From NCBI GenBank assembly GCA_024642525.1, contig JAHEAX010000007.1, positions 1 to 64,000 of the forward strand: a stretch of DNA of 64,000 nt, given 5' to 3'. This document shows positions 27,257-29,297 of the stretch, piece after piece (the first letter of the stretch is position 1; each line of letters opens with the position of its first letter). Position numbers and translations under genes: made by a program. The notes beneath the pieces are model-generated. The model did no database searches. It had not been told where the DNA came from and saw nothing but the letters and a program-made list of their open reading frames with translations. The stretch is from Erythrobacteraceae bacterium. GTDB taxonomy: Bacteria; Pseudomonadota; Alphaproteobacteria; Sphingomonadales; Sphingomonadaceae.

Positions 27257-27329
27257 TCGCGCAAGTTGCGCTTCGCGCTTGGCCCATCGGCCGTAATCGG
27301 CTAACCGCGCGCCCCATGAGGTTTATTCC

Positions 27330-27728
27330 ATGAGCATTCTAGGCAAGATTTTCACCTGGTGGGACGGCGCCACGATCGGCACGTTGCTGAACAGTTGGCG
27401 TCACGGCGAACAGGTTGGCACCGACGCGCAGGGCAACGCGTATTTTCGCGCCCGCAAGACGGCGGATGGCGCACGTGAACGTCGCTGGGTCATTTATGAA
27501 GGTGCCAATGATGCAAGCCGCGTGCCTGCCGAATGGCATGGCTGGCTGCACGGTTCAGGCGATGACGTGCCCGAAAGCAACCTGCCGCCTCCACGCATCT
27601 GGGAAGTGGATTACACGCCCAATGCCACTGGCACAGACGCTGCCTATCGCCCGCAAGGCGCGCTGGAACGCGGCGGCCGCCGCGCCAGCGCCACGGGCGA
27701 TTACGAAGCATGGACGCCGGATAGCTGA
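27330..27728 (+). CDS. NDUFA12-family complex I accessory subunit
   Basis: 132 residues related to the mitochondrial NDUFA12/B17.2 subunit, an alphaproteobacterial accessory subunit of NADH:ubiquinone oxidoreductase. Visible are WWDGATIGTLLNSWRHGEQVG at the N-terminus, GNAYFRARK and RRWVIYEGANDASRVPAEWHGWLH, a highly conserved core. The DUF2155 gene follows after 2 bases, a pairing common in alphaproteobacteria. Confidence 0.92.
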   Translation: MSILGKIFTWWDGATIGTLLNSWRHGEQVGTDAQGNAYFRARKTADGARERRWVIYEGANDASRVPAEWHGWLHGSGDDVPESNLPPPRIWEVDYTPNATGTDAAYRPQGALERGGRRASATGDYEAWTPDS

Positions 27729-27730
27729 TC

Positions 27731-28363
27731 ATGCGCAGGATTTTCCCTGCGGCAGGTGTGCTGGCACCGCTGATGCTTGCACTTGCGGCGTGTTCGCAAG
27801 GCGCGCCTGCGCCCGAAGCTGAAGAAACGGACATTCCCGAAGAATTGCAGCAGGCTGCCAAGCCCACTGGTCAGACCGGCCCTGTGGCGGGCGCAACGCC
27901 GATGGAAGACCGCGTGGCCACCATTGGCCTGCTGAACAAGCGCAACAACCTGTCGCAGGACCTGGAAATGAAACCGGGCGAATCGCGCAGGCTGGGGAAT
28001 GTCATCATTCGGCTGGCCGCGTGTGAACGGACCCCGCCATGGGAACTGCCCAAGGAAACAGGTGCATTTGTCCAGGTACTGGTGCGCGATACCGGCGGCG
28101 ATCGCGACTGGCGCAAGGTGTTTTCAGGCTGGCTGTTCAAACAGTCGCCGTCGCTAAATGTGGTCGAACATCCGATTTACGATGTCTGGGTCAAGGACTG
28201 CGCGATGAATTTTCCGGGCGAAGGGGCAGCTGACCCGTCCACTGATGAGACGCCCGATGCAGAGGCTTCGCCTGCGCCATCTGCAGCGCCGGCAGCGCCG
28301 GCAGCGCCGGCACCGGCGACGGAGCCTGCTGCCGAGGCAGAATCAGCCAATAACGCCCAATAG
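27731..28363 (+). CDS. DUF2155 domain lipoprotein-like protein
   Basis: 210 residues. Signal peptide with lipobox-like LALAACS; the DUF2155 domain occupies about residues 75-160 (MKPGESRRLGNVIIRLAACERTPPWE, FSGWLFKQSPSLNVVEHPIYDVWVKDC). The tail is Ala/Pro/Glu-rich, built partly from a 9-base repeat. Function unknown. The last 187 bases lie antisense to the 3-prime end of aat. Confidence 0.82.
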   Translation: MRRIFPAAGVLAPLMLALAACSQGAPAPEAEETDIPEELQQAAKPTGQTGPVAGATPMEDRVATIGLLNKRNNLSQDLEMKPGESRRLGNVIIRLAACERTPPWELPKETGAFVQVLVRDTGGDRDWRKVFSGWLFKQSPSLNVVEHPIYDVWVKDCAMNFPGEGAADPSTDETPDAEASPAPSAAPAAPAAPAPATEPAAEAESANNAQ

Positions 28364-28989
28364 GCTTCGGGCACGGACATATCCGGTGCGCCGCGCGCCT
28401 TTTCAAGCAATTGCAGATAGCGTTCCTGTTGCAGGGCCACAGCGCCCATCGATGCGAGATGTTCGGTCATGAACTGGCAATCGAGCAGACGCGCACCGCT
28501 TTTGCGTAAAATCGCCACCAGCCATGCCAGCGCCACCTTGGATGCGTTGTCCGCACGGCTGAACATGCTTTCCCCGCAAAAAACCTGGTCAAAGCTCACG
28601 CCATAAAGGCCGCCCACCAGATCATCTCCGCGCCATACTTCTATGGAATGGGCATATCCGCGCTTGTGCAGCGCCAGATAGCTTGCCTGGATGCGCGTGC
28701 TTATCCAGCTGCCGTCCTCATCGCCGCGAGGGGCCGCACAGGCGGAAATGACCTTTTCAAAAGCCTCGTCGCAAGTGACGCGGTAAATGTCCTGCCGCAA
28801 CACCTTGCGCAGCGATTTGGAACAGCGAAACCCGTCGAGCGGGATAATCGCGCGTTCACGCGGCTCTACCCAGAAGATTTCTTCATCGTCGCGCCCTTCG
28901 GCCATCGGGAAGATGCCGCTGCGATAGGCCATCAGCAACAGCTCCGGTGGAATGATGGCAGACGGGGCAGATGGCAGCGGCGCAGACAT
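28177..28989 (-). CDS. aat: Leucyl/phenylalanyl-tRNA--protein transferase
   Basis: Adds Leu or Phe from aminoacyl-tRNA to the N-terminus of proteins with basic N-termini, marking them for ClpS-ClpAP. The core is clear: PPELLLMAYRSGIFPMAEGR, WVEPRERAIIPLDGF, YAHSIEVWRGDDLVGGLYGVSFDQVFCGESMF and LLDCQFMTEHLASMGA. At 270 residues it is longer than usual; the last 50 or so form an Ala/Gly/Ser-rich tail translated from the strand opposite DUF2155. The start at 28989 was chosen because family similarity begins just after it. Confidence 0.92.
   Translation of the reverse strand: MSAPLPSAPSAIIPPELLLMAYRSGIFPMAEGRDDEEIFWVEPRERAIIPLDGFRCSKSLRKVLRQDIYRVTCDEAFEKVISACAAPRGDEDGSWISTRIQASYLALHKRGYAHSIEVWRGDDLVGGLYGVSFDQVFCGESMFSRADNASKVALAWLVAILRKSGARLLDCQFMTEHLASMGAVALQQERYLQLLEKARGAPDMSVPEAYWALLADSASAAGSVAGAGAAGAAGAADGAGEASASGVSSVDGSAAPSPGKFIAQSLTQTS
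28283..28309 (+). repeat. Three tandem copies of GCAGCGCCG
   Basis: A 9-base unit repeated three times without change. It encodes Ala-Ala-Pro-type residues in DUF2155 and Gly/Ala residues in the antisense aat tail. Likely a slippage-prone tract; length variation would alter both proteins by multiples of three residues. Confidence 0.85.
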
Positions 28990-29108
28990 TGGCTCCACTG
29001 TTAGCTTGCACGGGCGCGATCGCATAGAGTTTGCGATATTAGTGGCAGCAGCTGCACAAAGTTGCCTTGCCATCCAGCCTTCGCCGCTCTAGAGGCGCGG
29101 CTGCCTGC

Positions 29109-29184
29109 AGGAGCGTAGCTCAGTTGGTAGAGCATCGGTCTCCAAAACCGAGGGCCGTGGGTTCGAGTCCCTCCGCTCCTGCCA
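29109..29184 (+). tRNA. tRNA-Trp (anticodon CCA)
   Basis: A 76-base cloverleaf with encoded CCA. The acceptor stem AGGAGCG pairs with CGCTCCT, with discriminator G. The D-arm is TAGCTCAGTTGGTAGAGCA, the anticodon stem-loop is TCGGTCTCCAAAACCGA and the T-arm GTGGGTTCGAGTCCCTC. In many alphaproteobacteria this gene directly precedes secE; here about 2.2 kb separate them. Confidence 0.97.
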
Positions 29185-29297
29185 GGCAATATCGGCCAAC
29201 CCCGGCCACTTCCCCCAGATCCGCCCGAAACGCCCGCAGCCGGGCCATGACCTGATGTGCGTTTCATCACCTTCAGATGCCATTCACCCGAATTCGG

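Follow-up and report, generated by a model that had tools for sequence, protein, structure and literature searches.

Long overlaps between convergent bacterial genes have been surveyed previously, with 54 of 178 considered possibly real and most of them conserved just in very close species (PMC2478687). Conserved convergent overlaps are also examined in Rogozin 2002, as cited in that survey. Such overlaps generally occur in all three phases (PMC2174442), and conservation in frame -2 may be a mere effect of selection on the other gene, as PMC4182739 warns. The pair described here, aat and a gene for a DUF2155 protein, lies in a stretch of 64,000 nucleotides from an Erythrobacteraceae bacterium (hereafter, the window). 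It resembles the long overlaps of PMC2478687 and PMC2174442 in that the genes are on opposite strands, the 3' ends overlap (here by more than 60 bp), and the stop lies inside the neighbor. Unlike the overlaps of PMC2478687, it is present, always in one phase and with one stop, in 57 of the 82 family codes sampled from the class. As in the frame -2 overlaps of PMC4182739, positions 1 and 2 face each other, wobble is set against wobble, and selection on one protein shields the other frame, although that study models alternative frames of one gene, whereas here two established genes overlap at their ends alone. Going by its shared 3' coding ends, its conservation in relatives and its frame -2 arrangement, all read from sequence, aat/DUF2155 is a convergent overlap, and it is an unusually widespread case of the known frame -2 type. 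We did not find the pair in the literature searched, of which the coverage is incomplete.

Table 1. Coordinates of the features at the aat/DUF2155 locus (positions in the window).
Feature	Position	Strand	Description
aat, leucyl/phenylalanyl-tRNA--protein transferase	28177..28989	(-)	Probable coding region, 270 aa; PF03588 and TIGR00667
DUF2155 protein, 210 aa	27731..28363	(+)	PF09923, 7e-27; sequence
aat/DUF2155 antisense overlap, 187 bp	28177..28363	both strands	Frame -2, phase 123:213
aat stop codon, complement TTA at 28177-28179	28177..28180		Wobble base of DUF2155 Ile149 plus TA of Tyr150 codon (28178-28180)
Conserved end of DUF2155 domain, YDVWVKDC, Tyr150-Cys157	28178..28201	(+)	Antisense reading is QSLTQTS, the Aat end
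Predicted Aat C-terminal helix, residues 258-267, GKFIAQSLTQ	28189..28218	(-)	AlphaFold2
9-bp tandem repeat GCAGCGCCG x3.3	28283..28312	overlap	Ala-Ala-Pro units in DUF2155, Ala-Gly-Ala units in Aat
Fast-evolving part	28202..28360	DUF2155 (+), Aat (-)	DUF2155 tail past the conserved Cys, opposite disordered Aat linker; relatives' alignment

Both genes are readily assigned to their families. Aat matches PF03588 (Leu_Phe_trans) in a Pfam profile search at 1e-69 and scores 202.3 bits against the TIGR00667 (NCBIfam aat equivalog) cut-off of 143.55. The Leu_Phe_trans fold is matched too, and E. coli Aat (PDB 2z3k, 2cxa, and 2dps) shows the same enzyme fold at 41-43% identity across some 190-199 aligned columns. 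In the upstream direction, the aat ORF extends to ATG 29073. Because the matches of relatives begin mostly at about ORF residues 29-41 and a GGAG stands five bases before ATG 28989 (Met29 of the ORF), the latter is the likely start, giving a predicted protein of about 270 residues. The DUF2155 protein passes the PF09923 gathering cut-off (93.8 versus 27 bits), with profile positions 1-89 covered by residues 63-157; it carries a signal/lipobox-like sequence at the N-terminus and a low-complexity tail at the C-terminus. A fold search of the PDB with its predicted structure returned no significant match. Directly upstream of DUF2155 is an NDUFA12 homologue (PF05071; 27330-27728, plus strand), and aat is separated from a sodium:alanine symporter gene by a tRNA-Trp (CCA; 29109-29184, plus strand). 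The order aat, DUF2155, NDUFA12, with aat facing the other two, recurs in Sinorhizobium meliloti (locus L292), where accC precedes aat. In Sphingomonas parapaucimobilis (locus L293, 2025-2714), the DUF2155 frame is intact, yet it is missing between aat and NDUFA12 in the PLSDB gene table, which is incomplete.

The first-pass annotation had described a 187-bp antisense overlap, and both stop positions bear this out (aat, 28177-28179, minus strand; DUF2155, 28361-28363, plus strand). It had also stated that Aat reads through the complement of a tandem repeat and of part of the DUF2155 domain. This is likewise correct, since the domain ends at residue 157, placing residues 150-157 inside the overlap together with the repeat. 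According to PMC2478687, the majority of the long overlaps in annotated genomes have been put down to misannotation, and a missed aat stop or a frameshift would be the equivalent error here. However, independent genomes from many families share this frame and stop and both proteins match their families, and we give such an artifact next to no credence. When the aat stops of relatives are compared, the same frame is read to the same stop, and no earlier stop or frameshift is indicated. The comparison does not support one earlier statement, that Aat continues about 50 residues past its usual end: the same stop inside DUF2155 is the usual end in most sampled linked Alphaproteobacteria. Aat here extends 84 residues beyond the end of the Pfam domain, and 70 residues follow the conserved core versus about 27 in other Alphaproteobacteria, making it about 43 residues longer. 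The match to E. coli Aat is limited to ORF residues 41-228, leaving the linker and the antisense-encoded tail without a counterpart in that enzyme.

Codon positions in the overlap pair 1:2, 2:1, and 3:3 (DUF2155 codons run from 28178, those of aat occupy 28177-28179, 28180-28182, and so on), an arrangement named phase 123:213 in PMC2174442 and frame -2 in PMC4182739. Within DUF2155, Cys98, Trp134, and Cys157 are invariant and Tyr150 and Trp153 nearly so. By the genetic code, an aat stop can arise in this frame only where a DUF2155 Tyr codon is preceded by a codon with C or T as its third base, or where a His or Gln codon is preceded by one with T there. In every sampled overlap the aat stop is antisense to the conserved Tyr codon of the DUF2155 motif HPxYDVW...C, which is the first conserved Tyr that the aat frame meets, and each of the 201 overlaps that end at the Tyr has a length leaving a remainder of 1 on division by 3. 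Read antisense, the same motif gives the terminal QSxTQTS of Aat, and the Aat end tracks it residue by residue, as VWVKDC yields SLTQTS, VWVIDC yields SITQTS, and VWLLDC yields SSSQTS. Most residues of the Aat tail cannot vary unless DUF2155 varies. In unlinked or separated pairs (loci L253-L271, L292, and L295), aat ends without the TQTS motif, in some cases 2-8 residues past the core. Because TQTS is missing where the genes are apart, these Aat residues look imposed by DUF2155.

When the DUF2155 tail is randomized among synonymous codons, 88% of trials leave the aat frame open, and in 79% the Tyr provides its first stop. For this locus alone, so long an open antisense frame is unsurprising, and chance is enough. 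Chance fails to account for the recurrence of the frame across the class, which is the non-chance part of the observation.

That recurrence was measured in genomes with matches listed in both searches, a sample that leans to well-conserved copies. Among 136 distinct DUF2155 loci of the class, 80 overlap aat at the Tyr stop, 28 have a nearby aat ending elsewhere, and 28 have none nearby; the pair thus shares stop and phase in 80 of 108 linked loci. Of the family codes in which no sampled genome has the overlap, 14 show linked pairs that never overlap, and in 11 the two genes are always unlinked. Class overlaps measure 31-157 bp (median 64), as in Pseudorhodobacter turbinis with 37 bp, and the gaps of separated pairs range widely (Tistrella, 6 bp; Sinorhizobium meliloti, 94 bp; Shinella, 221 bp; Methylobacterium bullatum, 674 bp). 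Among the sampled pairs, overlaps in any other phase never exceed 4 bp. Of the non-overlapping linked pairs, 17 of 25 are in the same phase, a raw figure in which five are 4-bp stop-on-stop contacts, in that phase by necessity, and one is locus L090, discussed below. Among the gap-separated linked pairs, 7 of 15 are in the phase of the overlap versus 5 expected by chance, with no clear excess, so that phase lends no support to the decay of these pairs from an overlap. DUF2155 itself is found in 215 of 240 sampled Alphaproteobacteria and aat in 174, so that DUF2155 often persists without aat.

The Sphingomonadales set, comprising GTDB code f1 (the family of the window) and named Sphingomonadales, agrees with the present locus in convergent pair, phase, and aat stop at 122 of 123 distinct loci. 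This count is biased, as many of the loci were retrieved as best matches or with a pattern in which the tail is included. In a bias-reduced subset, in which the alignment mostly stops short of the tail, 19 of 20 are overlapped. Locus L090 is counted as overlapped on the strength of its tail; it had first been scored as an exception since the motif search mislocated the Tyr, a Phe being in place of the Trp. Overlap length in Sphingomonadaceae varies from 52 to 223 bp (190 bp in Sphingomonas parapaucimobilis), and the DUF2155 tail is fast-evolving there, differing in length and sequence among relatives and always in frame for both genes.

It is in this variable part that the tandem repeat is found. 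The array, 30 perfect bases, is the top-scoring tandem array of the 64-kb window and the longest perfect array among the 201 overlaps, and it was proposed to have grown in one gene and imposed the tail on the other. Part of this proposal is supported, in that a conserved DUF2155 motif read antisense gives the conserved Aat end and Ala codons lie opposite Ala codons, but the repeat is not the cause. Two copies of GCAGCGCCG (unit GCAGCGCCG; three copies likewise) are restricted to this species among the fetched loci. A sister locus (L002) has a 163-bp overlap without the repeat, the overlap is present in repeat-less relatives and throughout the class, and no more than about 30 of the 187 bp can come from the repeat. 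The repeat is a late addition, and recent repeat growth as the origin of the overlap in this lineage is very improbable, despite the perfect array inside it. Both tails are Ala-rich, as had been noted, with 19 Ala in 61 residues in each protein, because GCN faces GCN in this frame.

A harder question is whether the Aat tail is itself under selection. The wobble base before the Tyr codon is C or T in 103 of 103 overlapped Val-Tyr cases, compared with about 80% of other Val-Tyr pairs and 34 of 38 cases at the same site without overlap. By these figures, the aat stop is nearly a default, and it is also retained. At the two Val wobble sites that can change Aat residues, the C/T fraction in the class is 0.86 in overlapped versus 0.76 in free loci, and 0.36 versus 0.35; overlapped loci are no different from controls, which gives no support to selection at these sites in the class. 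The same sites in the family have C or T at 0.81-0.84, a skew that could hint at selection on Aat, with a non-overlapped Val site equally skewed (0.84).

The other signal in this search for Aat selection beyond that of DUF2155 is a depletion of Tyr, His, and Gln, the codons of which are read in the Aat frame as stop, Trp, or Cys (or Tyr). In the family, these residues make up 0.7% of overlapped DUF2155 tails versus 4.5% of the N-terminal linker of the same proteins, and in the class 2.0% versus 4.9%. The controls lack the depletion (linked non-overlapped, 6.2% versus 6.1%; aat-free, 6.6% versus 3.7%). The effect is stronger by genus in the family (39 versus 8) and modest by family code in the class (30 versus 15, p = 0.036), and it rests partly on related sequences, such that shared ancestry and low-complexity drift may contribute. 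Stop avoidance alone is too small a cause, because just 11% (family) and 17% (class) of the His and Gln codons upstream of the overlap follow a T. Avoidance of Trp and Cys in Aat is a possible addition. Tail composition, together with the open frame and the retained stop, hints indirectly that both overlapping ends may be translated.

Such data bear on the idea of true dual coding, under which the terminal Aat residues GKFIAQSLTQTS would be a working C-terminal helix that packs against the core, with the overlap kept by selection acting on both proteins. One stretch of DNA would then encode the last beta strand of DUF2155, with its invariant Cys, and a functional Aat helix, both selected since early Alphaproteobacteria. 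The AlphaFold2 model of Aat (mean pLDDT 90.3) does place the predicted helix behind a disordered linker, with linker blocks at 48-65 followed by 77 and 87 in the last two 10-residue blocks, while the DUF2155 model forms strand 150-158 from the same DNA (block pLDDT 84-94). The frame is open and largely free of Trp and Cys across variable DUF2155 tails, and several non-overlapping Aat tails end in hydrophobic, helix-like sequence (L133, L170, L185, and L269). However, the segment is wholly missing from many Aat proteins (L259, L260, L271, L278, L292, and L295), the Aat-altering wobble sites are alike in overlapped and free DUF2155 of the class, and Foldseek alignments to E. coli Aat span just the columns noted above. 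AlphaFold confidence may also mirror conservation imposed by DUF2155, and the modeled helix may accordingly be real or a product of that conservation. We consider both the working helix and its joint selection with the strand unlikely.

Our preferred explanation, which we hold to be probable, is an old inherited tail-to-tail overlap in which DUF2155 mostly dictates the end of Aat and the repeat is the latest insertion. An aat gene without its own stop after the enzyme core would enter the opposite strand of DUF2155, wobble facing wobble, and would halt where DUF2155 must first encode Tyr with C or T as the preceding base, which is the near-invariant Tyr of HPxYDVW. Purifying selection on DUF2155 would then mostly dictate the last Aat residues. 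In Sphingomonadaceae, in-frame insertions in the variable Ala/Pro/Ser-rich DUF2155 tail would also lengthen the Aat linker, the triplicated 9-mer being the newest such insertion in this species. Aat would constrain DUF2155 in return, by retention of the stop and of a stop-free, perhaps Trp/Cys-free, frame. The common pair, phase, and stop are found class-wide, the motif is absent when the genes are apart, and the stop-forming wobble base is retained.

For the origin, we infer and favor a single early or ancestral event with repeated losses, because every sampled overlap longer than 4 bp uses this one phase, whereas long convergent overlaps generally use three. Several independent gains are the alternative, and they are compatible with the fixed stop because loss of the stop from any aat lying in this phase would move its end to that Tyr. 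On a tree of Aat cores, overlap state changes 26 times versus a shuffled mean of 35.8, with gain and loss not distinguishable. Weak matches to DUF2155 also occur beyond the class, in G443 and further genomes of family code f162 (E values of about 1e-9 to 1e-4), and their placement relative to aat could provide a root for the overlap's history. A regulatory basis, in which convergent transcripts share 3' ends and each mRNA is antisense to the other, would preserve the overlap as well. A search of 27300-29250 for intrinsic terminator-like sites found 0 versus 2.0 expected, making overlapping transcripts plausible. Nevertheless, the genes are separated in many relatives, and a role at the RNA level alone requires neither a fixed frame nor an open aat frame, so that we regard this explanation as improbable.

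When established bacterial genes overlap antisense over a long stretch, the overlap is usually put down to misannotation or regarded as short-lived. Taken as an inherited overlap, aat/DUF2155 offers about 200 natural replicates, with free pairs for control, that show how a conserved protein sets the stop and the tail of the gene antisense to it and is constrained in return. It also advises caution, in that a strongly conserved motif, such as the TQTS ending many alphaproteobacterial Aat proteins, may be the mere shadow of another gene.
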